Positions 7,716 through 48,194 of a DNA stretch of 64,000 nt are shown here, piece after piece; position 1 is the stretch's first letter; every line of letters begins with the position of its first letter. The stretch is from Aquitalea magnusonii (GTDB lineage Bacteria; Pseudomonadota; Gammaproteobacteria; Burkholderiales; Chromobacteriaceae), in NCBI RefSeq assembly GCF_003202035.1, contig NZ_QJKC01000005.1, positions 62,001 to 126,000 on the forward strand, read 5' to 3'. Below the pieces are notes generated by a model. The model was not told the DNA's origin. It ran no database searches and saw only the letters and a program-made list of their open reading frames with translations. Position numbers and translations under genes: made by a program.

Positions 7716-8318
7716 TCAGGCCCTGATCCAGCCCAGCGCGATCGGCTTGGCCAGCAACAGGCGATACGCCTCGTTCAGCGGCGGCAACAGGCGCGCACCA
7801 CAGGCCGGCCAGGCCAGCGCCAGCAGCCAGCAGTACAGCAAGGGCAGCAGCAGGCCGCCCAGGATGTCCAGCGGCCAGTGCACCCCCAGGTAGACCCGCG
7901 ACCAGCCTACCGCCAGCGTCAGCAGCAGCAGGACACGGCCAAGGCGGGCCTTGCCGGCCAACCAGAAGGCATAGGCGGTGGTGGCAAAGATGGTGGTGTG
8001 GTCGCTGGGAAAGGAAGGATCGGCCGCGTGGGCGATAAAGCGGTAGCCCAGACCGATGGCAAAGGGGCGCGGGTGATCCCAGGCCAGGCCGATCAGCTGG
8101 TTGCACAACAAGGCCAGCCCGACACTGAGCAAGACCCGCAAGGCTCGTTCGCGCTGCGCTTGTTCGCCCCACAACCACATGCCCAGCAGCAGCAAGGGAA
8201 TCAGCAGGATCAGGTATTTGGCCAGCACGATGGCCAGCATGATCAGTGGCGCAGGCGAGGCCGGCGTGGCATTGACGAGCAGGAACAGGGCCTGATTGAT
8301 GCTTTCCAGTGCGGACAT
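7716..8318 (-). CDS. PAP2-family phosphatase, probable undecaprenyl-diphosphatase (BcrC/YbjG type)
   Basis: 200 residues, strongly hydrophobic with about five or six membrane spans. The three PAP2 phosphatase motifs are readable: DHPRPFAIGL, PSFPSDHTT and SRVYLGVHWPLDILGG, whose histidines form the catalytic pair. The PSDH variant in the second motif is usual in the BcrC/YbjG group, which recycles undecaprenyl pyrophosphate for wall and surface polymer synthesis and can give bacitracin tolerance. It is transcribed away from chrA and stops against the bidirectional terminator. The substrate is inferred from family resemblance. Confidence 0.85.
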   Translation of the reverse strand: MSALESINQALFLLVNATPASPAPLIMLAIVLAKYLILLIPLLLLGMWLWGEQAQRERALRVLLSVGLALLCNQLIGLAWDHPRPFAIGLGYRFIAHAADPSFPSDHTTIFATTAYAFWLAGKARLGRVLLLLTLAVGWSRVYLGVHWPLDILGGLLLPLLYCWLLALAWPACGARLLPPLNEAYRLLLAKPIALGWIRA

Positions 8319-8472
8319 GACAGTTTGATGACGAAAATAAGAAAACCGGATTGTAACGGGCAGCAGGCGCGCTGTCCTTGCTTGTTTTGTGACGAAGCAT
8401 GTCTTTGCCTGCCCATGGGCCGGACTGCGCTACAGTAGCGCCTTGTCCAGCCACCCAACACGCAGGAGTGCC

Positions 8473-25002: not shown

Positions 25003-25078
<76 letters not shown>

Positions 25079-25107
25079 AACCGTTCCAGTCGGATAAAGT
25101 TCTTAGG

Positions 25108-25183
25108 GTCCCCATCGTCTAGTGGCCTAGGACATCGCCCTTTCACGGCGGTAACCGGGGTTCGACTCCCCGTGGGGACGCCA
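25108..25183 (+). tRNA. tRNA-Glu (TTC)
   Basis: 76 bases with encoded CCA. The acceptor stem GTCCCCA pairs with TGGGGAC, and the loop CTTTCAC gives anticodon TTC. It is very close to E. coli tRNA-Glu. It lies between the first and second tRNA-Ala copies. Confidence 0.97.
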
Positions 25184-25205
25184 GAGTACCAGACGTAGTA
25201 CCCGT

Positions 25206-25281
<76 letters not shown>

Positions 25282-25332
25282 CAATTCAGATACTGATGAC
25301 ATCGCCTGACGGGTTTCATCAGTCCAGCATTC

Positions 25333-25408
<76 letters not shown>

Positions 25409-25460
25409 CTACACAGTCAGCTGGCCGATGGCTCCAGACCACGGACAGACAAAGCATCAC

Positions 25461-25536
<76 letters not shown>

Positions 25537-32106: not shown

Positions 32107-33696
32107 ATGACTCAGCAACAGACCATTGCTCTGGTCGAATCACTTGACCACGAAGGCCGCGGGGTCGCCCACGTCGACGGCAAAACCATTTTCATCGACG
32201 GCGCACTGCCCTATGAAAAGGTAATATACAGCGCCTATCGCAAAAAGCCCACGTACGAAAACGCCGACACCACCGCCGTGCTGAAGGAAAGCTTCATGCG
32301 CGCCACGCCGTCCTGCCCGCACTTCGGCACCTGTGGCGGCTGTTCCATGCAACACGTCGAATTTACTGCCCAGGTCGCCATCAAGCAGCGCGTTCTGGAA
32401 GACAACCTCAAATTTATCGGCAAGGTGAAGGCCGAGCGCATTCTCACCCCGATTGCCGGCCCGACCTGGCATTACCGTCACCGTGCCCGCCTGTCGGCCC
32501 GCATGGTGCCGAAAAAAGGTGGCGTGCTCGTGGGCTTTCATGAAAAGCACTCCAGCTATATCGCCGAAATGCGCGAATGTCACATCCTGCCCAAGAATAT
32601 TTCCGACCTGATCATGCCGCTGCGCGAGATGATCGCCAAGCTGTCGATCAACAGCCGCATGCCACAAGTGGAAGTGGCGGTGGGAGACAAGGTGGACGTG
32701 CTGGTATTCCGCAATATGGATGCCATCAGCAAGGCCGACGAAAAGCTGCTGCAGCAGTTCGCCGACCAGCACCGCCAGCCGCAGCGACCGCTGCAGATCT
32801 GGCTGCAGCCGGCAGGCCCGGATACCTGTTATCCCATCTATCCGCTGGATGCCCCGCGCCTGAGCTACAGCATCCCGCAATATGGCGTGGAAATGCCCTA
32901 CTACCCCACCGAATTCACCCAGGTGAACCCGCAGATCAATGCGGTGATGGTGGCACGCGCCCTCAGCTTCCTCGATCCGCAACCGGGCGAACGCATTGCC
33001 GACATGTTCTGCGGCATCGGTAACTTCACCCTGCCCATTGCCCGCTCCGGCGCCACGGTTCACGGCATGGAAGGCAGCCAGGCCCTGGTGAAGCGTGCCG
33101 TGGAAAATGCCACCCACAATGGCTTGCAGGACAAGGTGAGCTATGAAATGGCCAACCTGTTCGAAGTCACCCCGGCCAGTTTTGCCGCACTGGGCAAGTT
33201 CGACAAAATGCTGGTAGACCCACCGCGAGATGGTGCCATCCAGCTGCTCAAGGCCATGACCGACGACACCGCACCGCAGCGCATCGTCTATGTGTCCTGT
33301 AATCCGGCCACCCTGGCCCGGGATGCCGGCGTACTGGTCAACACCAAGGGCTACACCCTCAAGGCCGCAGGCATCATTAACATGTTCCCGCACACCGCCC
33401 ACGTCGAGTCCGTTGCCTGGTTCGAAAAAACCGGCCCGGCCAAGAGCCTGAAGGAAGTGGCGGACATGGAAGCAGCGGAAGAAGCCATCCGCGAAGCCAA
33501 ACGTCAGGCCCGCAAGCAGCAGGAAGCCGAGGCAGAAGCCCGTAAACAGGCGGAACTGGCGGAAAAAGCCGCGGCCAAGGAAGCCCGCCGTCAGCACTAT
33601 CTGGCCAACAAGGACTACTACGACGCCCGTAGTGCTGCCCAGCAGCAGGCACGCGATGCCGCAGCCGCTGGTGAGGAAGCTTCCAGCAAGGAATAA
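32107..33696 (+). CDS. rlmD: 23S rRNA (uracil-1939-C5)-methyltransferase RlmD with long C-terminal tail
   Basis: 529 residues; E. coli RlmD has about 433. A TRAM domain (about 1-60) is followed by the Fe-S cysteines C70, C76, C79 ([11 protein letters not shown]) and C158 (MRECHIL). The SAM domain (about 290-440) has [28 protein letters not shown] and the catalytic Cys in [15 protein letters not shown]. After about residue 445 a tail of some 85 residues is rich in Ala, Glu, Lys and Gln ([20 protein letters not shown]), predicted as a coiled coil. The tail is an uncommon addition and may bind RNA or a partner. Confidence 0.93.
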
Positions 33697-33753
33697 GCTG
33701 TTTTAGGTGTTTGCCTGTAGCGTTCGACCCCAGTTGTCACCCCGGAACGAACG

Positions 33754-33894
33754 ATGCAGGCGCACCTGACCGACAGCTATATAGCCAGAATCAAAACCCC
33801 GGATTCACGTGTTGAAGTCAAGGACACGCGGATACCGGGGTTAACTTTGCGCGTGGGAAAGCGCGCCAGGGTGTGGACTTCCACAGCACAGTAA
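33754..33894 (+). pseudogene. N-terminal stub of a DUF4102-type tyrosine integrase
   Basis: 46 codons from ATG to TAA. The product MQAHLTDSYIARIKTPDSRV, then EVKDTRIPGLTLRVGKRARV, has the typical start of P4/SXT-type integrases (LTD-x-x-I...D-T-R-x-P-G-L-x-L-R-V). The frame ends after VWTSTAQ, and no core-binding or catalytic domain (no R-H-R-Y residues) follows. It is therefore a broken leftover of an element insertion next to rlmD, unrelated to the lambda-type integrase at 2324. Confidence 0.78.
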
Positions 33895-34012
33895 GCTCTT
33901 ACCTCTCCAGCCTCAACCGATTGCAAAGTAACGGCACTTGCCACCCCCTGCTTCATCGGTAGAAACCCGGCACACCGGGGAAAGCGGGGTCGGGTTTGCA
34001 GGTAACGGGAAG

Positions 34013-34040
34013 CAGTGCTTAAACAGATAGTTAAGCACTG
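34013..34040. repeat. Perfect 10-base inverted repeat
   Basis: CAGTGCTTAA and TTAAGCACTG are separated by ACAGATAG. There is no T run on either side, so termination is doubtful. It could be a regulator site or a trace of the mobile element whose integrase stub lies 120 bases away. Confidence 0.55.
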
Positions 34041-34071
34041 TAGCGCCAGCGATACATAAGGAAAATCCACA

Positions 34072-34099
34072 TTGCAATACCGGTATTTTCAACTGTAAA
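34072..34099 (+). promoter_or_regulatory. Predicted promoter of the riboswitch transcript
   Basis: TTGCAA (34072-34077) and TGTAAA (34094-34099) are 16 bases apart. A transcript from here would begin near 34106, right where the riboswitch aptamer starts, which supports both calls. Confidence 0.55.
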
Positions 34100-34106
34100 A
34101 TTAGGA

Positions 34107-34223
34107 AACTTATGGCAAAGCCGGTGAAAGCCGGTGACGCAAAACTAAAGGGACTACCGGACGCCTAGCGTTCCCATGTCAGCCAGTTGCCTGCTACCGC
34201 CCGGTAGCTGACAGCGCCTTTAG
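34107..34223 (+). ncRNA. Cyclic-di-GMP-I (GEMM) riboswitch and expression platform
   Basis: The GEMM-I signature is readable: GGCAAAGCCGGT, GAAA tetraloop, then GCCGGTGACGCAAA (34114-34143), ACTAAAGGGACTACCGG, and the second-helix part GTCAGCCAGTTGCC matching consensus GGCAGCCGGGTTGCC. The aptamer covers about 34107-34192. The rest offers mutually exclusive pairings: CTACCGG (34154-34160) or GCTACCG (34193-34199) can each pair with CCGGTAG (34201-34207), and CTAAAGG (34145-34151) can pair with CCTTTAG (34217-34223). It lies directly before the calpain-like gene and should tie its expression to c-di-GMP. Direction of control is not decided. Confidence 0.83.
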
Positions 34224-34251
34224 CTTTGCTTTGGATCCCCAAAGGAAAACG

Positions 34252-37200
34252 ATGAGCGCCTCAAACACTCTCCCCCGTCAGCAAGACAATGTGCTGGCAA
34301 ATGCGACCTCCGCCAAGGCGGCCGACGGTTTGCTGTCTGATGCCGGTTTTCCGGGGCAAAGCAATGTTTCTGCATCACCGACCTTGCCTGTCTATCAGTC
34401 GGCCCTGCCCAACAGCCTGCTGGCCGCTACGGTCAGTGCAACGGCTGCCAGCACGGCAGCGCTGTCCAATACCGCATCCACTACAGCGATCAGCAACAGC
34501 ACGCTGAAGCTGAGCTCGGCCACAACGGCACCATCGTGGATTGCCACGCTGTCCGACTCGGTGTTGAAGGCTGACATGAACGCCATGTCCGGTACCGTGA
34601 CCGAAGCCGGGCTGGCCAAGCTGGTGACTGATTTGTCCGCCGAGCTGACCAGCAACAAGACCACGCTGTCCAGCAGCCAGTTCAATGATCTGAAAAGCAT
34701 TGTCACCAACCTGAATGTTGGTGAAACGGCGTCGTCCTATTCCCAATACACCCTGAATGCGCTGGTCAACGGCAATGCCGCCAATGCCTCCTGGACGGGT
34801 GGCAATGCATCCAGCAGCAGCCTGGGCAATCTGGCTGTCGGCTCCAGCGCTGCCCAATTGAGCAATCTAAACGGCAAGTGGTTGCAGGGTGCGGACCTGC
34901 CCTCGTCCACCGTCACCGTCGATGGCTCCACCTCAAAAATCACCTACAGCACCAGCACTGCTTCCCTGTTTGGCAGCAGCGGCCCGCTGGCCAGCGATAT
35001 CAATCAGGGCAAACTGGGTGACTGCTACTTCCTGTCGTCGATTGCCGAAGTGGCCAGCCAGAACGCCGGCATCATCAAGAACATGATTACGGAGAACGGT
35101 AACGGTAGCTATGGCGTGGCCTTCCACTTCCATGGCAGCACCGAGTACGTCACCGTCAACAATGTGCTGCAAACCGGCTGCAACTCTGGCAGCAATATGT
35201 GGGCGACCCTGCTGGAAAAAGCCTATGCCCAGCTGCAGGCCATCAATGTGACCACCGGCAACAGCTACACCGGCAACAGCTTTACCGCCATCGGCAATGG
35301 CGGCCTGCCGGAATATGCCTTGGAGTCGATTACCGGGGCATCGCAGATCACCGACTTCTGCGCCAGTGGTTCCAGCTGGCTGTGCCGTACCTATAATGCA
35401 TCGCTGTCCGGTACCGGTTCGCAAAATGGCCTGAGCAATGCCACGGTATTAAGCTCACTCAAAACCCATCTCGCGGCCGGGGATGACCTGGTGTTGTCGT
35501 CCAACACCTGGAGCTATGACGCTGGCGGCAAAGTGCAGCTGGTGGCCGGCCATGCCCTGTCGATCTATGGCATCGATGCAGCCAATGGCAATCTGGAAAT
35601 TCGCAATCCCTGGGGCAGCCAGAGCGGTCAATACTGGAACACCACTTTCGAAGTCAGCCTGGCTACCCTGCTGGCCGCCGGCGATACCATCACCGTGGAC
35701 AATGCCGGTGGCACCGTGCCGCTGGTGCCCAAAGCGCCGGTAATCAGTGCCCAGACCGCCAACCAGACCGTTGCCGCCAACCATGCCTTCTCGCTGTCGC
35801 TGGGTAATGTTTTCAGCGACCCGCAAAACCAGACGCTGAGCTACAAGGTAACCCAGGCCAACGGTCAGGCCCTGCCGTCCTGGCTCAGCTTCAATGCCAG
35901 CACCAACACCCTGTCCGGCACCACGCCGCTGACTTCCAGCTCGACGCAGGTGCTGGTAACTGTGACCGATACGTCCGGCCTGTCCGCCAGCGAAACCTTT
36001 TCCATCACCGATACCGCACTGGCACCAACCCTGGCCAAGGCCACGGCAACTCAGCTGGTTACCCCTGGCCATAGCTTCAGCTTTGCCCTGCCGACTGGCA
36101 CCTTTACCGATCCGCAAGGTGAAACCCTCAGCTACAGCGCCAAGCTGGCCAGTGGCGCGGCCCTGCCCTCCTGGCTGAGTTTCAATGCGCAAACCCAGAC
36201 TTTCAGCGGTACGGCACCCAGCGCCAATACCACGCTGGCGCTGCAAGTAGTGGCCACCAACCAGGCTGGCCTCAGCACATCAGAGAACTTCACGCTGAAT
36301 GATGCCTACGCCGCTCCGGTTCTGAAGGCGCAGACCGCCAACCAGACCCTGGCTGCCAACCATGCCTTCTCGCTGTCGCTGGCCAATGCCTTCTCCGATC
36401 CGCAAGGCCAGACCCTCAGCTACAAGGTGACCCAGGCCAATGGCCAGGCCCTGCCGTCCTGGCTCAGCTTCAATGCCAGCACCGACACCCTGTCCGGCAC
36501 CACGCCGCTGAGCTCCAGCTCGACCCAGGTGCTGGTGAAAGTAACCGATACGGCTGGCCTGTCGACCACCGAAACCTTTACCATCAGCGATACTGCCTAC
36601 GCTCCGACGCTGAACAAGGCCACCGCGGCCCAGCAGCTCCCCCCCGGCCACAGCTTCAGCTTTGCCCTGCCGGCTGGCACCTTTACCGATCCGCAAGGTG
36701 AAACCCTCAGCTACAGCGCCAAGCTGGCCAGTGGCGCAGCCCTGCCCTCCTGGCTGAGCTTCAATGCGCAAACCCAGACATTCAGCGGTACGGCGCCCAG
36801 CGCCAATACCACGCTGGCGCTGCAAGTGGTGGCCACCAACCAGGCTGGACTGTCCACCTCGGAAACCTTCAGCCTTAACGATGGCTATGCCGCTCCGACG
36901 CTGCATACCCAGACTGCCAACCAGACCATCAATGCCGGCAAGGCTTTCAGCATCAGCCTGCCCAGCACCACCTTTGTCGATCCGCAAGGCCTGGCGCTCA
37001 CTTACAAGGCCGCGCTGGCCAATGGTCAGGCTTTGCCCAGCTGGCTGAGCTTCAATGCCCAGACCGAAACCTTCTCCGGCACGGCACCGACCACGGCTGG
37101 CACTTTCGGCATTACCCTGACCGCCACCGACAGCGCCGGCCTGTCCGCATCGGAAACCTTCTCCCTCAACGATGTGGCGAGCGTGCTCAAAGCCCCGGTG

Positions 37201-37584
37201 GTGAACCAGCTGCCGCTGGCCATCAGTTTCAATGCCAATGGCACGCTGAACATCAGCGTACCGCAAGGCACTTTTACCGATCCGCAAGGGCAGACGCTGA
37301 CCTACGGTGCCACGCAGTCCAATGGCCAGGCGCTGCCCAGCTGGATTACCTTCAACGCCAAAACCGACAGCTTTGTCGCCACACCGGGCAGCCAGACCGA
37401 ATCGGCCACCATTACCGTCAAGGCCACCGACACCTCCGGCCTGTCGGCCAGCGAAACCTTCTCCTTGTCCTTGGGTGGCACCGGAGCCGGGGCGCACGGC
37501 CTGACTCACGACAGTGCTCCGGCCATCTCGCTGGTGGGTGTCAACCTGTCGGCCGCCGCGCTGGCCGAGCTGCATCTGGCCTAA
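34252..37584 (+). CDS. Calpain-like protease with six Ig-like repeats, probable type I secretion substrate
   Basis: 1110 residues; the ATG at 34252 follows AAAGGA. There is no Sec signal. Residues 1-200 are Ser/Thr/Ala-rich. A calpain (C2) protease domain spans about 230-480 with Q252, C258 (QGKLGDCYFLSS), H434 (VAGHALSIYGID) and N452 (IRNPWGSQ). From residue 495 six cadherin-like/He-PIG Ig repeats of 96-100 residues follow (FTDPQGETLSYSAKLASGAA, LPSWLSFNA). No RTX nonapeptides are seen. The protein ends SAAALAELHLA. The facing PrtD/HlyD/TolC genes are the likely exporter. The c-di-GMP riboswitch points to a biofilm or surface role. Both are inferences. Confidence 0.87.
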   Translation: MSASNTLPRQQDNVLANATSAKAADGLLSDAGFPGQSNVSASPTLPVYQSALPNSLLAATVSATAASTAALSNTASTTAISNSTLKLSSATTAPSWIATLSDSVLKADMNAMSGTVTEAGLAKLVTDLSAELTSNKTTLSSSQFNDLKSIVTNLNVGETASSYSQYTLNALVNGNAANASWTGGNASSSSLGNLAVGSSAAQLSNLNGKWLQGADLPSSTVTVDGSTSKITYSTSTASLFGSSGPLASDINQGKLGDCYFLSSIAEVASQNAGIIKNMITENGNGSYGVAFHFHGSTEYVTVNNVLQTGCNSGSNMWATLLEKAYAQLQAINVTTGNSYTGNSFTAIGNGGLPEYALESITGASQITDFCASGSSWLCRTYNASLSGTGSQNGLSNATVLSSLKTHLAAGDDLVLSSNTWSYDAGGKVQLVAGHALSIYGIDAANGNLEIRNPWGSQSGQYWNTTFEVSLATLLAAGDTITVDNAGGTVPLVPKAPVISAQTANQTVAANHAFSLSLGNVFSDPQNQTLSYKVTQANGQALPSWLSFNASTNTLSGTTPLTSSSTQVLVTVTDTSGLSASETFSITDTALAPTLAKATATQLVTPGHSFSFALPTGTFTDPQGETLSYSAKLASGAALPSWLSFNAQTQTFSGTAPSANTTLALQVVATNQAGLSTSENFTLNDAYAAPVLKAQTANQTLAANHAFSLSLANAFSDPQGQTLSYKVTQANGQALPSWLSFNASTDTLSGTTPLSSSSTQVLVKVTDTAGLSTTETFTISDTAYAPTLNKATAAQQLPPGHSFSFALPAGTFTDPQGETLSYSAKLASGAALPSWLSFNAQTQTFSGTAPSANTTLALQVVATNQAGLSTSETFSLNDGYAAPTLHTQTANQTINAGKAFSISLPSTTFVDPQGLALTYKAALANGQALPSWLSFNAQTETFSGTAPTTAGTFGITLTATDSAGLSASETFSLNDVASVLKAPVVNQLPLAISFNANGTLNISVPQGTFTDPQGQTLTYGATQSNGQALPSWITFNAKTDSFVATPGSQTESATITVKATDTSGLSASETFSLSLGGTGAGAHGLTHDSAPAISLVGVNLSAAALAELHLA
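35734..36891 (+). repeat. Tandem duplication of a 579-base two-domain module
   Basis: 35734-36312 and 36313-36891 are both exactly 579 bases (288 + 291) and highly alike: repeat 1 matches repeat 3 and repeat 2 matches repeat 4 over long runs. Repeats 5 (36892-37191) and 6 (from 37192) are more diverged. This indicates a recent copy of a pair of Ig-like domains. Confidence 0.85.
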
Positions 37585-37691: not shown

Positions 37692-39050
37692 CTAGGGCTG
37701 CCCGGCCTGTGCGGAAAAATTGCGATCCAGCAAAACCATGTCTTCGCCACGCAAGGCCCCGCTGTCGGCACGCAGGGCAATCCAGCTGACCAGCTGGTTG
37801 TATTGTGCCAGCAGCAAATCACGGCGTGCCTGGTATAGCTGCTCCTCGCTATTGAGGACGTCGGTCAGGGTCTTGACGCCGGCCCCCAGCCCCAGCTTGC
37901 TGGCCTTGACCGTTTCCTCGCTGGAGATCACGGCTTTTTTCAGTGCCGCCACCTTGCGCGCACCATTGCTGACACCATAAAACTGCCTGGTCACCTCCAG
38001 CTCTACCTGCGTTCTGGCATTGTCCAGCTCGGCCAGGGCCTGCCGGTGTTGCGCACTGGTTTGCACGATCTGCGCCGAATTATAGCCGCCGTTGAAAATG
38101 GGCAGGCTCAGCTCGATGCCGATCGCATTCTGGGTGATGCGCTGATTGATGGTGGAGACGGAACTGGCGCTGGAGCGGTCCTTGCTGGCGACCAGATCCA
38201 GCGTGGGATAGTTGCTGGCTTTGGCTTTGCGCAGTTCCTGTTCGGCGATCTGCACATTCATCTGCGCCGCGCGGATGTCCGGGCTGTACTGCAAGGCCTT
38301 GTCGCGCCAGTCGGACACCGTACCTTCGGCACCCAGATATTGCCCGATATCACTGCCCGGCTCGGCCAGCCCGGTTGCCGGTGTGCCGGTCACGGCCAGC
38401 AGGCTGCGCTCGGCGATGAGCTGCATATTGCGGGCCTCGATCAACTCCGACTCGGCCAGCGCCATGCGCGCCTCGGCGTCGTGGATGTCGGTCACCGTGC
38501 CATCGCCCTGCTCGAACAGTTTCTGGGCCTGCTGGCGCGCGCTGCTGAGCGCATGCAGCTTGGCCTCGCTCAGCGCGATGTTTTTCTGTGACAGCAACAA
38601 ACCCAGATAGGCCGACAGATAACGCACGGCCAGTTCGTTTTCCTTGCGGGAAAAAACCGCCTCGCTGTAGTCGGCGCGGGCATTGCCCTGCTGGTAGATG
38701 GCCCAGCGTTGCAGATTGAACACCGGCTGGCGCAGCTGGATGGCCGCGTCCTGGCTCATGTACTTGAGCGGCGAGGTGGACAGCGTGCCAAAAAAATCGG
38801 GGGCGGTATCCGAACCGGTGACCTTGCTGCGGTTGAAGCTGGCACTCAGTGTAGGCAGCAACTGCGCCTGCCCCAGCTGGCGGTTGGCGGCGCCGGCTTC
38901 GCGCTCGGCGCTGGCAGACTGGTATTGCGGGTCGTTCTGCCGCGCCAGCTGAAACCCCTCCAGCAAACCATAAGCCTGGGCCAAGGCCGGCAGCAGCAAG
39001 GCCGGAAGGGTGAGCAGCGCATAAAGACGACAAGGCCTGCGTACGGCCAT
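37692..39050 (-). CDS. TolC-family outer membrane channel of the type I secretion system
   Basis: 452 residues. A signal peptide covers about 1-26 (LLTLPALLLPALAQA). The mature part has the two TolC repeats of long helices (ASAEREAGAANRQLGQAQLL, QARRDLLLAQYNQLVSWIAL) and the typical start YGLLEGFQLARQNDPQYQSA. It forms the trimeric outer-membrane duct of a type I exporter. Its ATG follows the adaptor stop with no gap, so the three genes form one operon. Confidence 0.92.
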   Translation of the reverse strand: MAVRRPCRLYALLTLPALLLPALAQAYGLLEGFQLARQNDPQYQSASAEREAGAANRQLGQAQLLPTLSASFNRSKVTGSDTAPDFFGTLSTSPLKYMSQDAAIQLRQPVFNLQRWAIYQQGNARADYSEAVFSRKENELAVRYLSAYLGLLLSQKNIALSEAKLHALSSARQQAQKLFEQGDGTVTDIHDAEARMALAESELIEARNMQLIAERSLLAVTGTPATGLAEPGSDIGQYLGAEGTVSDWRDKALQYSPDIRAAQMNVQIAEQELRKAKASNYPTLDLVASKDRSSASSVSTINQRITQNAIGIELSLPIFNGGYNSAQIVQTSAQHRQALAELDNARTQVELEVTRQFYGVSNGARKVAALKKAVISSEETVKASKLGLGAGVKTLTDVLNSEEQLYQARRDLLLAQYNQLVSWIALRADSGALRGEDMVLLDRNFSAQAGQP

Positions 39051-40424
39051 TCAGCTCTCCTTGAAGGCGAGGTTCATGCGATCCAGGATGGGCTTGAGCA
39101 GATAGCGCAACATGGTGCGCTCGCCGCTCTTGATGACGATGGTGGCCGGCATGCCAGGCTTCACCTGCTGATTGCCCAGCAGCTGCATGCCAGCCGGGGT
39201 GACCTTGATTTGCGCCAGATAATAAGGCGCGCCGGTTTTCTGATCCAGCAAGCGGTCGGCGGAGAAAGTGGCCACCACGCCGGGTATCACCGGGGTGCTC
39301 TGCTGGTTCAGCGCCGGGAAGGTAATGTCGACCGGCAGGCCGGGATGCACCTTGGCGCTCATGGCCGGGTCGACCGTGGCTTCGATCAGCAAGGGCTGAT
39401 GGGTTGGCACGACATCCATCAGGGGCTGACCCGGCTGCACCACGCCACCAACGGTATGCAATTTCAAGCCCACCACCAGTCCGTCAATCGGCGAACGGAT
39501 GATGCTGTTGGCCACGGCATAGCGCTGGGCGGTAAGCCGGTCGCGCAAGGCGTCGGTTTCTTTCTGGATATCCGTCAGCTGCGACTCGACTTCTTTCTGG
39601 TAATCCTGCTGGCGCGCAATGCGGCGCAGCCTGGTTTCGGCAATGCTGTCCTGCACCCGGCCGATACTGGCAATGGTATCCGCCAGTTCGCCCTTGATTT
39701 CCGCCGCCGCCCTTTCCAGCTGGTACAAGCGGTTTTTCGGCACATAGCCACCAGCAGCCAGTTCGCGTATGCCCTCCAGCTCCTTGTCCTGCCACTTGCT
39801 TTGCTCGGCGCGGGCGGCCTTTACCCCCTGGAATCCGCGCAGCTGTTCTTTCAGCCCGTTAATGTTTTCATCCTGGGCCTGCAATTCGTTGTGCAAGGCA
39901 GCGCGGCGGGTATTGAACAGCTGGGTCTGCAGCAATTTGGCCTGCGTCACCCGCGGGTCACTGGCCAGCGCATCCAGCTCGGACGAAAAAACCAGCGTCG
40001 GCTTGCCATCGCGCTCGGCCAGCAGGCGGTCCTCGATGGCACGGGCGCTGATGAACTGCGCCAGGGTGCTGCCCATCTGCGCACGGGCCTCGGTATCGTT
40101 CAGCACAATCAGCGACTGGCCTTTTTTCACCAGCGCCCCCTCGCCTACCAGCAGCTGTTCGATGCTGCCGCCCGTCAGGTGCTGCACGGTCTGGCGATTA
40201 CTGGCCACGGTGACGCTGCCATTGGCCGTGACCCCTTCATCCAGCGGTGCCAGTGCCGCCCACAGCATGAAGCCGCCAAAACCGACCAGCAACAGCTTTA
40301 CCCCGCGCCGGCCTATGCGGCCATCATCGGTATCCACCCGGCCAAACGGCTCGATGCCCGGCTTGGCGGTGTGCTCCGGCGGCGGACGGCGGAGGGCGGC
40401 GGTCAATTTGTGGAACAGATTCAT
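39051..40424 (-). CDS. HlyD-family periplasmic adaptor of the type I secretion system
   Basis: 457 residues. A single N-terminal membrane span is near residues 40-62 (GVKLLLVGFGGFMLWAALAP). It is followed by the lipoyl half (VTVASNRQTVQHLTGGSIEQ), a long coiled-coil hairpin, the second lipoyl half (NSIIRSPIDGLVVGLKLHTV) and the beta-barrel (GMPATIVIKSGERTMLRYLL). This is the PrtE/AprE type of membrane-fusion protein linking the ABC transporter to TolC. It overlaps the upstream ABC gene by four bases. Confidence 0.94.
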   Translation of the reverse strand: MNLFHKLTAALRRPPPEHTAKPGIEPFGRVDTDDGRIGRRGVKLLLVGFGGFMLWAALAPLDEGVTANGSVTVASNRQTVQHLTGGSIEQLLVGEGALVKKGQSLIVLNDTEARAQMGSTLAQFISARAIEDRLLAERDGKPTLVFSSELDALASDPRVTQAKLLQTQLFNTRRAALHNELQAQDENINGLKEQLRGFQGVKAARAEQSKWQDKELEGIRELAAGGYVPKNRLYQLERAAAEIKGELADTIASIGRVQDSIAETRLRRIARQQDYQKEVESQLTDIQKETDALRDRLTAQRYAVANSIIRSPIDGLVVGLKLHTVGGVVQPGQPLMDVVPTHQPLLIEATVDPAMSAKVHPGLPVDITFPALNQQSTPVIPGVVATFSADRLLDQKTGAPYYLAQIKVTPAGMQLLGNQQVKPGMPATIVIKSGERTMLRYLLKPILDRMNLAFKES

Positions 40425-42178
40425 GCCTGGTTCTCGTTGGAAGTGTGGCCGGCCTGGTCCTGGGCGGCTGCCTGCTGTTGTTGCAGCGCCTGCTGGGCGG
40501 CCTGGTTCAGCGCATACAGCACCTGATCGCGCGGGCCGAACAGGTGCAACTGGCCATCGCGCATCACCAGCAGCTTGTCCACCGCATTGAGAATGCTGGT
40601 GCGATGGGTGATCAGCACCACGGTGGTACCGTGTGCTTTCAGGTCCATCACGGTGTGGATCAGTGCCTGTTCGCCAACATCGTCCAGATTGGAATTGGGT
40701 TCATCCAGTACCACGAAAGCCGGGCTGGCGTAGATGGCACGGGCCAGGGCGATACGCTGCTTCTGCCCGCCGGACAGCATGCTGCCGCCATCGCCCAGCC
40801 GGGTATCGTAGCCCTGGGGGAAGCGCAGAATCATCTCGTGCACACCGGCCCTGGTGGCGGCCTCGATCACCAGTTGCGAATCGATATCGCCAAAGCGGGC
40901 GATGTTCTCGGCAATGCTGCCTTCAAACAGCTCGATATCCTGCGGCAGATAGCCGATATGCGGGCCCAATTCGTCCTTGTTCCACTGGAAGATATCCGCG
41001 CCATCCAGCCGCACCTTGCCGGATTGCGCCGGCCAGATCCCGACCAGCAGGCGTGCCAGTGTTGATTTGCCCGCCGCGCTGGGGCCGACAATGCCGACGA
41101 TATCGCCATGCTGCATGGCGCAGCTGATGCCCTTGAGAATGGGCGCATGGCCGCCCGGCGCACCGGCCACCACTGCCTCGACCTGCACATTGCCCTGCGG
41201 CCGTGGCAGGCTCATGCCACTGAGGCGGGCCGGATACTCGGCCAGCAGATCATCCAGCCGTTGATAGGCGCTACGTGCGCCGATGAGTTGCTTCCAGGTG
41301 GCGATGGCCATTTCCACCGGCTGCAGCGCGCGCCCCATCAGGATGGAGCCGGCAATCATCATGCCGGGAGAGATTTCATTCTGGATGGCCAGCAAGGCCC
41401 CGACGGCCAGCACCAGCGACTGCAGCGACAGCCGTACCAGCTTGGAAATCGCCCCGATACGCGCGGCCTTGTCCGATGCCTCGGTCTGTTTTTCCAGCAC
41501 CCGGCTCTGAAACAGGAACCAGCGCTCGCGCAAGGCGGGCAACATGCCCATGGCCTCGATCACTTCGGCATTGCGCAGATTGTTGTTGGCGTAATTGCCA
41601 GCGGCAATCGCCGCCTGATTGGCCTCGGCCAGCGGTTTGCGGGTGGACAGCTCGGTCAGCCAGGCCAGCGCACACAGAATAAGCATGCCCCCCAGCACAA
41701 ACAGACCCAGTATCCAGTGAAACATAAAGGTAACGGCGAGGTAGATGGGCGCCCAGGGGGCATCAAAGAAGGCGAACAGCCCGTTGCCGGTAAGAAACTG
41801 GCGCACGCTGGTCAGATCATGCAGGGCCTGGCCGGCATTGCCGTTGTTCCGGCGCAGATTGCGCTCGAAAGCGGCCGTGAACACACGAAAGTTCAGCTGC
41901 ATGTCCAGACGGTTTCCCACCCGTATCAGTACTGCAGAACGCACCAGCTCCAGCAGCGACATCAGGCCGTACAGGCCCACCACCATCAGCGTCAGCATCA
42001 GCAGCGTGGTTTCGTTGCGGCTGTGCAGCACCCGGTCGTAGATCTGCAGCATGTAGATGGAAGGCAGCAGCATCAGCAGATTGATCACGGCACTGAAGCC
42101 CGCCAGCTGGTAGAAGGTTTGGCGGAAGGTCTGCAAAACCTGGGAAAGTTCGGAACGGGACTGTAACAGTCGTTTCAT
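40421..42178 (-). CDS. Type I secretion ABC transporter/ATPase (PrtD/AprD family)
   Basis: 585 residues from MKRLLQSRSELSQVLQTFRQ. Six membrane spans occupy about 25-310 and the ATPase the rest: Walker A GPSAAGKST, signature LSGGQKQR, Walker B FVVLDEPNSNLDD. There is no N-terminal C39 peptidase or peptidase-like domain, which groups it with PrtD-type exporters of RTX proteases, lipases and hemophores, not with HlyB. The substrate is probably the calpain-like protein encoded across the terminator. A 220-base gap without a gene lies upstream and should hold the operon promoter. Confidence 0.93.
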   Translation of the reverse strand: MKRLLQSRSELSQVLQTFRQTFYQLAGFSAVINLLMLLPSIYMLQIYDRVLHSRNETTLLMLTLMVVGLYGLMSLLELVRSAVLIRVGNRLDMQLNFRVFTAAFERNLRRNNGNAGQALHDLTSVRQFLTGNGLFAFFDAPWAPIYLAVTFMFHWILGLFVLGGMLILCALAWLTELSTRKPLAEANQAAIAAGNYANNNLRNAEVIEAMGMLPALRERWFLFQSRVLEKQTEASDKAARIGAISKLVRLSLQSLVLAVGALLAIQNEISPGMMIAGSILMGRALQPVEMAIATWKQLIGARSAYQRLDDLLAEYPARLSGMSLPRPQGNVQVEAVVAGAPGGHAPILKGISCAMQHGDIVGIVGPSAAGKSTLARLLVGIWPAQSGKVRLDGADIFQWNKDELGPHIGYLPQDIELFEGSIAENIARFGDIDSQLVIEAATRAGVHEMILRFPQGYDTRLGDGGSMLSGGQKQRIALARAIYASPAFVVLDEPNSNLDDVGEQALIHTVMDLKAHGTTVVLITHRTSILNAVDKLLVMRDGQLHLFGPRDQVLYALNQAAQQALQQQQAAAQDQAGHTSNENQA

Positions 42179-42400
42179 CGGCAAAAGGCTCTGGGTGATC
42201 TACATGGAAGCAAGCGCAGCGGGCGACGCAGTTGGCCTCAGCCTGTAAAAATATGTCAGCGATTTTATCACAGCGCCCGGCAGCCATGATGACGTCTTCA
42301 AGCCATGCCGGCACTGCGCTGCAGCGCTTGCCAGCACCCAGGACAGCACGCGGGGCCAGCCACCCACACGGTGAATGGCCCTCAGCCGACCGGGTACTGT

Positions 42401-44579: not shown

Positions 44580-47500
44580 TCAGTTATTGCGGGTTTCCAC
44601 TTGCTGCAAGGCTACCGCCACCGGCGCTGCCTGCTCGGCAGCCTGACGAACCACATCGCGTCGACGCGGACCGGCCGGCACTTCGATTTGCGGCTGTTCC
44701 TGCTGTACCACGGCCTTGGTGGCCACCATGACCAGACCACCCAGGTCGGCCGGAACTTCCGGCTTGGTTTCCACAGCAGTCACTGCCGGGGCAGCCTGTA
44801 CTTCGGCCACCGGCGCAGCGACCACTTCCACCACTTGCTCGACCACAGCCACCACCGGCTCTGCCGCAACCGGCTCGGCTACTACAGCCACCTCGGCCAC
44901 GGCAGGCTCAATGCTGAGCGGCTGCACTTCGACGACCGTGCTGACTTGCTCCAGCACCACCGCAGCAGCAACCACCTCTACCGGGGCCTCCACCACTGCC
45001 GGGGCTTGTTCGGGCAGTTCCGTTACCGCAACGGGCTCCGGCACAGGCTGCTCGACCGCCACTGCTGCGGCTTCCGCCACCACAGGCTGCGCTTCGGTCT
45101 GGACAGGCGCCTCGGCTGCGACGGCCACCTCGGCTACCACCGGCTCGACCGCAGGCTGTGCCAGCGGCTCTACCGTCACGGCTGCCACTGGCTCGACCGG
45201 CTGCACGGCTTCCGGCTGCGCAGCAGCGTCCACGGCAGCAAGCGCTTCTGCAGCAAGCACACCGCTTGCAGCGGCAGCAAGCACTTCGCCGGCTTCGCCC
45301 AGCGCTGCAGTGTTTTCACCTTCCAGCGGCTCACGACGACGGTCACGACGACCACGACGACGACGACCACGCTCGCCACGCTCTTGCTGTTCAGCCGATT
45401 CGGCGGCAGCTTCCACGCCTTCGGCGCTGTTCAGCTTGAGTTCTTCTGCTGCATTGGCCTGCGGCTTGTCGGCTTCATTGCGCTCGGCTTGCGGCTGACG
45501 ACGACGCGAGGACTTTTCCGCGGCTTGCGGGGCGGACGGCTGCTCGCCACGTTCTTCCGCTTGCGGACGCGCATTCTGCTCACGCGGCTCGCGGTTTTCA
45601 CGCGGTTCGCGTTCACGGCGCTGACGCGGCTCGCGTTGCGGCTGTTCGCCACGCTCGGCACGTTCGCCACGCTCCGGACGTTCGGCGCGCTCGGCACGCT
45701 CTACGCGCTCCGGACGTTCCTGACGATCAGGGCGCTCATTGCGCTGCTGACGGCGGCCATCCTGACGCTCGCCATCCTGGCGGGCTTCGGCCGGGCGTTT
45801 GCCGGCTTCTTCGCCCTGACGACGCTCATGATGGTCACGTCGTGCCTGGCTGCCCGGACGACGTTCGTTATTGCGCTGGCGGTTGCCATTACGCTGACCG
45901 TCACGCGGCTGCGGCGCAGCTGCCGGCTTTTTCTTTTCGGTTTCCTGCGGTGCCGCTTCCGGCTCGGCAAACAGGCTCTTGACCCAGCCGAAGAAACGGC
46001 CGATCACACCCTGCTCGGCCACCACCGGGGCTACCGCTGCCGCGACTTCGGGCTGGCTGGACACCGGAGCCGGCTGTTGCGGCGTGATGCCCTTGACGGC
46101 GGCTTCCTGACGTTCGACCTTGGGCTTTTCCTGACCGAAGTTGGTGATGATGTCTTCTTCCTGCACTTCCACGCGCAGATAGCTCGGGCCATCGCCCAGC
46201 TCGGCCAGATCATCGTGACGCACGCGCACGATCTTGTAGTGCGGGGTTTCCAGATGGATGTTGGGAATCAGCACCACATCCACATCCAGGCGTTCTTCGA
46301 TGGAGTGGATTTCGGCACGCTTCTCGTTCAGCAGGAAGGTGGCCACATCCACCGGCACCTGGGCGTGTACCGCACCGGTGTTTTCCTTCATCGCCTCTTC
46401 CTGGATGATGCGCAGGATGTGCAGGGCGGAGGATTCGGTACCACGGATGAAGCCGATGCCATGGCAGCGCGGGCAAGGCTCGTGGCTGGTTTCACCCAGC
46501 GACGGTTGCAGACGCTGACGCGACAGTTCCAGCAGGCCAAAGCGGGACAGCTTGCCCATTTGCACGCGGGCGCGGTCGTGCTTCAGCACATCGCGCAGCT
46601 TGTTTTCCACTTCGCGCTGGTTTTTCGGGTTTTCCATGTCGATGAAGTCGATCACGATCAGACCGCCCAGGTCGCGCAGACGCAGCTGGCGGGCGATTTC
46701 TTCGGCGGCTTCAACGTTGGTGCGCAGTGCGGTTTCCTCGATGTCGGCACCCTTGGTGGAGCGGGCGGAGTTGACGTCGATGGAGACCAGTGCCTCGGTG
46801 TGGTCGATCACGATGGCACCACCGGACGGCAGCTGCACGCTGCGCGAGAAGGCGGTTTCGATCTGGTGTTCGATCTGAAAGCGCGAGAACAGCGGGACGT
46901 GATCCTTGTACAGCTTCACGCGGTGCACCATATTGGGCATCACGTGGCTCATGAACTGGCGGGCCTGTTCGTAGATTTCGTCGGTGTCGATCAGGATTTC
47001 GCCGATATCCGGATGGTAGTAGTCACGGATGGCGCGAATCACCAGGCTGCCTTCCTGCAGGATCAGGAAAGGCGCATTCTGCGAGCCGGCCGCACCTTCG
47101 ATGGCGCGCCACAGCTGCATCAGGTAACCCATGTCCCATTGCAGTTCTTCCAGATTGCGGCCGATACCGGCGGTACGGGCAATCAGGCTCATGCCATTGG
47201 GGACTTCCAGCTGGGCCAGCAGGTCTTTCAGTTCCTGACGCTCTTCACCCTCGATGCGGCGCGATACGCCACCACCACGCGGGTTATTGGGCATCAGCAC
47301 CAGATAGCGGCCAGCCAGACTGATATAGGTGGTCAGGGCTGCACCCTTGTTGCCGCGCTCGTCCTTTTCGACCTGGACCACCACTTCCATGCCTTCGCGC
47401 AGCACGTCCTGAATGCGCGGACGGCCACCGTCATAGCCCTGGAAATAGGAGCGGGATACTTCCTTGAACGGCAGAAAGCCGTGGCGCTCGGTGCCGTAAT

Positions 47501-47675
47501 CGACAAAGCACGCTTCGAGGGAGGGCTCGATACGGGTGATGATGCCCTTGTAGATGTTCCCTTTGCGTTGTTCTTTGCCAACGGTTTCGATATCGAGGTC
47601 GACCAGCTTTTGCCCGTCGACGATGGCAACGCGCAGCTCTTCAGCCTGCGTTGCATTAAACAACATGCGTTTCAT
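44580..47675 (-). CDS. rne: Ribonuclease E
   Basis: 1031 residues from [27 protein letters not shown] precedes this ATG, and E. coli Rne starts the same way. The S1 domain (about 38-120), RNase H-like and DNase I-like catalytic regions are intact, with metal ligands D300 ([10 protein letters not shown]) and D343 (VIDFIDM) and the zinc link C401/C404 (EPCPRCHG). After residue 500 the protein is disordered: an Arg/Glu-rich RNA-binding part ([20 protein letters not shown]), then a long Ala/Val/Glu/Pro-rich tail ending [15 protein letters not shown]. The tail should scaffold a degradosome; its partners are not readable. Confidence 0.96.
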
Positions 47676-48194
47676 AAACGTTCCCTGCGCGGCACTCACG
47701 CAAGGGATGCAGCCAGTATTTGACGGCCCAGAGGCTATTGATGGGCGCTTTCCGAAAGAAGTGTTGGTATAAAGATCATTACAACCGAGATATCAAGCCT
47801 ACTTCCTGACTAAATTCACACGGGCCCGAGGGTTTGAGCGCATTAGCGCATCGGAAATTTTCTTCCAGCCCGCCATCGCGGGCGAGCTGGACAAACTGGA
47901 GGGCTGCGTGCCGGGTCAAACTTTGCTGCAAGATCTCCTGACTGGCTCTGCATCAGGAAATGGAATACTCGTGAGTGCGTTATGCGACTAAATGCATTAC
48001 CATCGCTGCTTTTTGGTGAGCGAGTTAACCTTGGCTGCGGCCGGTTGACGCGGCATCAGGTCAGGGTCAACACCCTGCCGGCCGGTTCACTTTCCCGCAG
48101 CAGCATCACGCGGCAATACTGCCTGTGACCATGGCTTTCCGGAACGCTGTCATCGCACTGAAATGTGCGGTCGAGCGCACGAAGTATAAGCAAT
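47676..48194. other. rne/rluC divergent intergenic region
   Basis: About 520 bases without a gene between divergent rne and rluC, the same arrangement as in enterobacteria. In E. coli the long rne leader contains hairpins through which RNase E controls its own message; the roughly 300 bases next to rne here probably serve as a comparable leader. No conserved hairpin could be assigned by eye, and promoters were not identified with confidence. Confidence 0.5.

Follow-up and report, generated by a model that had tools for sequence, protein, structure and literature searches.

Why would a bacterium place a calpain-type protease directly behind a sensor of cyclic di-GMP (c-di-GMP)? The question is raised by a locus of Aquitalea magnusonii, in which a class I c-di-GMP riboswitch precedes a gene for a 1110-amino acid (aa) protein that joins a calpain-type protease domain to immunoglobulin (Ig)-like repeats, with a set of type I secretion genes facing it. 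All coordinates are positions in the window, that is, the whole stretch of 64,000 nucleotides (nt) of the 4.4-Mb genome that was analyzed. Comparisons drew on samples of 10 genomes for the genus, 61 for the family, 399 for the order and 398 for the phylum (the phylum count takes in the genome itself), and the eight leaders, proteins and loci compared are those of the Aquitalea genomes carrying the calpain gene, namely the window and seven relatives. The answer favored here, held at about even confidence, is that the riboswitch would act as a translational OFF switch on a calpain-type, Ig-repeat protease that would leave the cell via the facing PrtD-type exporter. The aptamer, the anti-aptamer element, the predicted catalytic triad and the fact that switch, protease and exporter occur together within Aquitalea are established at the level of sequence, and the steps that link them are argued below.

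A sequence-only reading of the window had placed a GEMM-I aptamer at 34107, beginning where a sigma-70-like promoter would start transcription, and both elements were recovered. Scoring by cmscan (Infernal) gave a plus-strand match to RF01051 (c-di-GMP-I, GEMM-I) at 34104-34194, 3 nt from the proposed start, with 60.5 bits against a gathering score of 35 and spanning the entire model (positions 1-87 of 87). It is the one RF01051 match in the genome among the 150 of 348 first-look candidates that were scored, and no other riboswitch was reported among these. The columns 34115, 34142 and 34190, which presumably correspond to the ligand-contact positions G20, A47 and C92 in Vc2 numbering, are unchanged in all eight leaders. 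The promoter, TTGCAA-18-TAAAAT on the plus strand (34072-34101), ends just before the aptamer begins and is the sole site of the promoter scan in 33690-34300, where shuffled sequences give 0.3 (standard deviation 0.5); a TARAAT box starts 8 nt upstream of the aptamer model in every leader. RF01051 precedes the calpain gene in 8/8 Aquitalea genomes that carry it, the riboswitches of the seven relatives having been found at the calpain loci by cmscan.

Directly downstream of the riboswitch, an ATG at 34252 opens the 1110-aa frame (P0001, plus strand, 34252-37584), in which a C2 domain and six Ig-like repeats had likewise been read. Peptidase_C2 (PF00648) matches residues 240-458 (34969-35625) with 60.1 bits against a cut-off of 23.8, and the six He_PIG (Ig-like) stretches at 35734-37470 are the only He_PIG matches in the genome; the N-terminal part has no Pfam match. 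A profile built from the eight Aquitalea C2 domains retrieved 19 distinct PDB sequences at E<=0.1, named calpain or calpain-like, with a best E-value of 1.4e-10. The catalytic Cys aligned strongly to PDB calpain chains, the His and Asn lying in a second stretch that is weak by itself, and the predicted triad C258 (35023-35025), H434 (35551-35553) and N452 (35605-35607) is invariant in the eight proteins. Two unit types alternate along the Ig-repeat region, and the number of repeats differs between genomes, the protein being 1106-1110 residues long in four genomes and 910-915, about two repeats shorter, in the other four. At the C-terminal end (37519-37584), the eight-protein alignment revealed a conserved word ISLVG and an H near the end but no recognized secretion signal; this tail is a possible type I secretion signal.

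An exporter facing the protease had also been claimed, and three adjoining minus-strand genes, all facing the plus-strand calpain gene, answer to it with matches over the NCBIfam cut-offs. They encode a TolC-family outer membrane protein (OEP/TolC, 37692-39050; PF02321 and TIGR01844), an HlyD-family type I secretion adaptor (39051-40424; TIGR01843) and a PrtD-type type I secretion ABC protein (40421-42184; TIGR01842, 782.5 bits against a cut-off of 510.15); among the 111 ABC matches of the genome, this last one alone exceeds the TIGR01842 cut-off. The facing trio stands beside the calpain gene in 8/8 Aquitalea, as detected by tblastn in the seven relatives, and riboswitch, protease and exporter occur together in 8/10 genomes of the genus. 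The two misses are G008 (61% complete) and G009 (100% complete). In G009, riboswitch and calpain are absent, the PrtD protein is also absent at E<=1e-100, and the flanks are kept: rlmD lies on one side, a methyl-accepting chemotaxis protein, a tRNA and DNA resembling RNase E lie on the other, and the interval has no match to the module. Since the three parts are jointly present or jointly absent, they form one unit in the genus, and to this extent the earlier description of a compact system stands; the direction of control, which it did not give, had to be sought separately.

Calpain-like proteins elsewhere in the order appear to tie such domains to type I secretion. In G036, a 1442-aa protein with ALTTAQ repeats and a C2 domain is encoded between a TolC-like gene and genes for a C39-ABC and an HlyD-like protein, and RTX repeats are present in a C2 protein of G265 whose reading frame is truncated by the end of the locus (944 residues). 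Together with the conserved pairing in Aquitalea, these two proteins point to export of the calpain protein by the facing type I system.

The direction of control was sought in the expression platform. A core strand of the aptamer, GCAAAACTAAAGG (34139-34151, plus strand), contains the ligand-site adenines and the 5′ part of P3, and can pair at 12 of 13 positions with a downstream anti-aptamer element, CCTTTAGCTTTGC (34217-34229), so that the platform can form an alternative to the aptamer, a 12-pair anti-aptamer helix. This pairing was spotted by eye first and then tested. Across the eight distinct leaders 96/96 cells of the helix are paired, compared with 18.5-67.7% for slid partners, and the element is the sole one of the 63,987 plus-strand 13-mers of the window that pairs with the core at 12/13 or more positions. 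Ten of its 13 columns are invariant, as against 10/31 and 1/11 in the adjoining spacers; two of the three variable columns switch to G-U and the third is the unpaired position. Further downstream, predicted folds of the window's leader place a hairpin, CTTTGG-ATCC-CCAAAG (34229-34244), over the Shine-Dalgarno (SD) sequence, whose region AAAGGAAAA (34241-34249) ends 2 nt upstream of the start codon and in which six of the seven SD columns are invariant across the leaders. The only terminator-like site in 33690-34300 is on the minus strand (shuffle mean 1.2), with none on the plus strand; terminator-based control was therefore rejected and translational control is preferred.

Folding calculations, whose energies ignore ligand and tertiary contacts, indicated that opening the ribosome site costs 6.1-10.7 kcal/mol with the aptamer enforced and 4.2-7.0 kcal/mol with the anti-aptamer helix enforced. 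Opening is costlier in the aptamer state in 8/8 leaders, by 0.9-5.4 kcal/mol, and the mean difference is 4.1 as observed versus 1.3 with shuffled spacers. Without ligand, the anti-aptamer state is favored over the aptamer state in 7/8 leaders, the exception being G006. Briefly, at low c-di-GMP the element would pair with the aptamer core and break the binding site, the ribosome site would be easier to open and the protease would be made, while at high c-di-GMP the aptamer would close, the element would be freed and local hairpins would cover the ribosome site. Less certainly, the Ig repeats may keep the exported protein on the cell surface or within the matrix, where it would cleave surface or matrix proteins as the cell leaves the sessile state.

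Low c-di-GMP is characteristic of motile or leaving cells, and it is in these that an OFF switch would have the protease made, hinting that the cell shuts it off on settling down. The likeliest role would be the cleavage of surface or matrix proteins at release. The sequence-only reading had left a choice between a surface protease and an adhesin; as the platform points to repression by c-di-GMP, a protease of release or of the motile phase fits better than a biofilm adhesin. Signaling by c-di-GMP is rich in this genome, which has 54 GGDEF matches and, on another contig, a single C93 (LapG-type) match that lies close to a weak GGDEF one.

Of the other explanations, the one that survives best, although somewhat unlikely, accepts both switch and export and has the protease act outward on host, prey or nutrient proteins, with c-di-GMP just restricting it to motile cells. 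The same switch and export evidence supports it, and no target protein was identified in the locus.

Several observations weigh against a translational OFF switch on an exported protease, and those concerning the switch come from the leaders. The anti-aptamer helix has no two-sided compensatory change among the eight leaders, so that covariation proper is lacking, and the folding energy of the entire leader is little better than that of shuffled sequences (z -1.77). The number of shuffles reaching the observed opening-cost difference ranges from 0 to 18 of 40 per leader, the worst cases being G004 (18/40) and G003 (10/40). SD exposure is less in the aptamer state in 5/8 leaders, equal (0.21) in the window and more in G003 and G004, and the aptamer state raises AUG exposure in four (G000, G001, G002 and G005, the window included) and lowers it in the other four. 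Because these exposures were inconsistent between leaders, neither was retained as proof of direction, and the opening cost of the entire ribosome site was measured instead with shuffled spacers as control, a measure thus picked after the exposure results had been seen. With local exposure mixed, repression by c-di-GMP is a prediction of moderate strength from the expression platform. The AlphaFold2 model of the protease domain was also poor (mean pLDDT 49.1) and was not used.

The mixed exposures lend something to an unlikely second explanation, in which c-di-GMP would raise expression of a protein that serves sessile cells chiefly as an Ig-repeat adhesin or matrix component, with the C2 domain used for its processing or release. 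In half of the leaders the aptamer state exposes the AUG more, in two of the eight it does so for the SD sequence, and Ig-like repeats are frequent in adhesins. In addition, the excerpts of PMC6366702 describe a class I ON switch before an adhesin gene, Bc2 of Bacillus thuringiensis, which precedes a gene for a collagen adhesion protein. Against an ON switch, the opening costs of every leader have the anti-aptamer element freeing the ribosome site instead of blocking it, and the three aligned triad residues are all invariant.

The remaining points against the favored reading concern export. No RTX nonapeptide repeats (HemolysinCabind) are among the Pfam matches of the 1110-aa protein, such repeats being common, not universal, in type I secretion substrates. 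PrtD matches at E<=1e-100 occur in five family genomes outside the genus, none with calpain, and three of these matches (G037, G050 and G046) are relatives of 67-76% identity; the 12.9-kb locus of the calpain relative of Rhodoblastus sphagnicola also lacks such an exporter. In A. pelogenes, hlyD (L027:11147-12527) was matched in two pieces in different frames, which is either a broken gene or an assembly error. That the facing exporter transports substrates other than the calpain protein, as the calpain-free PrtD relatives, the missing RTX repeats and the Rhodoblastus locus might suggest, is nevertheless improbable, given the joint presence in 8/8 genomes, the joint absence in G009, and the connection of calpain domains with type I secretion in G036 and G265.

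The favored arrangement, in which c-di-GMP represses an exported calpain-type protease, invites comparison with known systems. In the LapA/LapG/LapD system, c-di-GMP decides surface proteolysis by a cysteine protease and the large surface protein is type I-secreted. The likeness ends with the protease, since LapG belongs to family C93, is periplasmic and is governed by a protein receptor; PF06035 is not among the Pfam matches of the 1110-aa protein, and identity with LapG was rejected. A closer parallel is zmpI/PPEP-1 of Clostridioides difficile, which, in the excerpts of PMC6366702, releases surface adhesins and lies behind a class I c-di-GMP riboswitch, with c-di-GMP repressing its expression. 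In both systems a class I riboswitch occupies the leader of a protease that is, or in Aquitalea probably is, exported; the OFF logic, as predicted for Aquitalea, is the same. According to the same excerpts, however, zmpI/PPEP-1 is a zinc metalloprotease of a Gram-positive bacterium controlled by transcription termination (PMC6366702), whereas in Aquitalea the protease is a calpain-type cysteine enzyme that carries Ig repeats, export is probably by a type I system and the platform is predicted to act on translation. Nor does the Aquitalea protein show the zinc metalloprotease domain of PPEP-1/ZmpI, its Pfam matches including Peptidase_C2 and no metalloprotease.

Hence the earlier view of the locus as an undescribed system needs qualification: an exported protease under a c-di-GMP riboswitch is not new in kind, as the C. 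difficile case in the excerpts of PMC6366702 illustrates. A search of one literature collection found no paper joining "c-di-GMP riboswitch" with "calpain", nor "Aquitalea" with "calpain". Bacterial calpain homologues are described in the excerpts of PMC4631099 as rare, with intact catalytic residues and without calcium-binding sites, the Gloeobacter one having RTX-type repeats. The Aquitalea protein resembles them in its rarity and in a Peptidase_C2 domain with intact catalytic residues, and those excerpts mention neither He_PIG repeats nor a riboswitch (PMC4631099).

The claimed rarity of bacterial calpains was confirmed by counts. A calpain-type domain at E<=0.001 occurs in 8/399 order-sample genomes, four of them Aquitalea, and in 6/398 phylum-sample genomes, the window's own included; outside the genus this amounts to one genome in the family (G036), four in the order sample and five in the phylum sample, some of them weak matches. 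Within the family sample, Peptidase_C2 was found in 9/61 genomes and RF01051 in 11/61, the latter scan using stricter filters by which weak matches may be lost. A scan of named genomes gave seven loci, in Aquitalea palustris, A. aquatica, A. pelogenes and Aquitalea sp. LB_tupeE and, outside the genus, in Rhodoblastus sphagnicola, a Telmatospirillum metagenome-assembled genome and a Rhodanobacteraceae bacterium. The R. sphagnicola protein (L051) has a C2 domain and two He_PIG repeats and is 50% identical over 655 aligned residues; unlike in Aquitalea, its locus has no RF01051 match and no facing exporter was found, and an E-value search of its leader gave three matches far below gathering scores, none of them RF01051. 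RF01051 precedes none of the calpain-like genes at 14 loci outside Aquitalea (5 + 9), two of which are from one genome and several of which are weak or partial matches; nine of them average about 3.4 kb, so that the leaders of long proteins may lie outside them. One locus (L055 of G421, a genome 81% complete) has a full-length Peptidase_C2 match of 176 bits interrupted by nine in-frame TAA/TAG codons, perhaps eukaryotic contamination with another genetic code.

Other RF01051 leaders of the family were also recorded. In G059 (L032:4170-6573), RF01051 lies about 50 nt upstream of a gene for a 756-aa subtilase (Peptidase_S8) whose start resembles a signal peptide by eye, which would give the Chromobacteriaceae a second case of an exported protease preceded by a c-di-GMP riboswitch. 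One RF01051 aptamer of G046 stands before the first part of a DUF5801 gene that runs off the end of its contig (L031:1-1665), and a different contig encodes a protein with an RTX match just upstream of a PrtD relative (L077:2288-5876); the two may be the ends of one large gene for a type I-secreted adhesin. A second aptamer of G046, with 87 bits, precedes a CHASE/histidine kinase/response regulator gene (L030:4211-7739), and a 62-bit match in G044 (L029, about 8245-8328) has as its nearest long open reading frame (ORF) one without a Pfam match. Because RF01051 precedes the subtilase, the DUF5801 protein and the CHASE histidine kinase, exported proteins may be a repeated target of this riboswitch in the family. 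Elsewhere in the window, 25003-25536 has a cluster of four tRNA-Ala(GGC) genes and one tRNA-Glu(TTC) gene, and 44580-47723 is covered on both strands by overlapping ORFs of about 1040 aa, of which the minus-strand one is of the RNase E/G family and the plus-strand one, without a family match, is probably spurious.

In its fullest and still tentative form, the interpretation is that of a Gram-negative counterpart of the PPEP-1 switch, seen just in Aquitalea, in which c-di-GMP would stop translation of a type I-exported, Ig-armed calpain that sheds proteins of the surface or matrix, and a fall in c-di-GMP would thus directly aid cell release. If true, this would be, to our knowledge, the first riboswitch-controlled calpain. 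Little is known of what bacterial calpains do, and here the switch gives the signal, c-di-GMP, while the neighboring genes suggest an export route; a bacterial calpain would thus gain a testable physiological role, in a module compact enough for testing in one genus. Riboswitch-controlled exported proteolysis would also reach beyond clostridia into Gram-negative bacteria, where the protease is unrelated, an instance of convergent logic.

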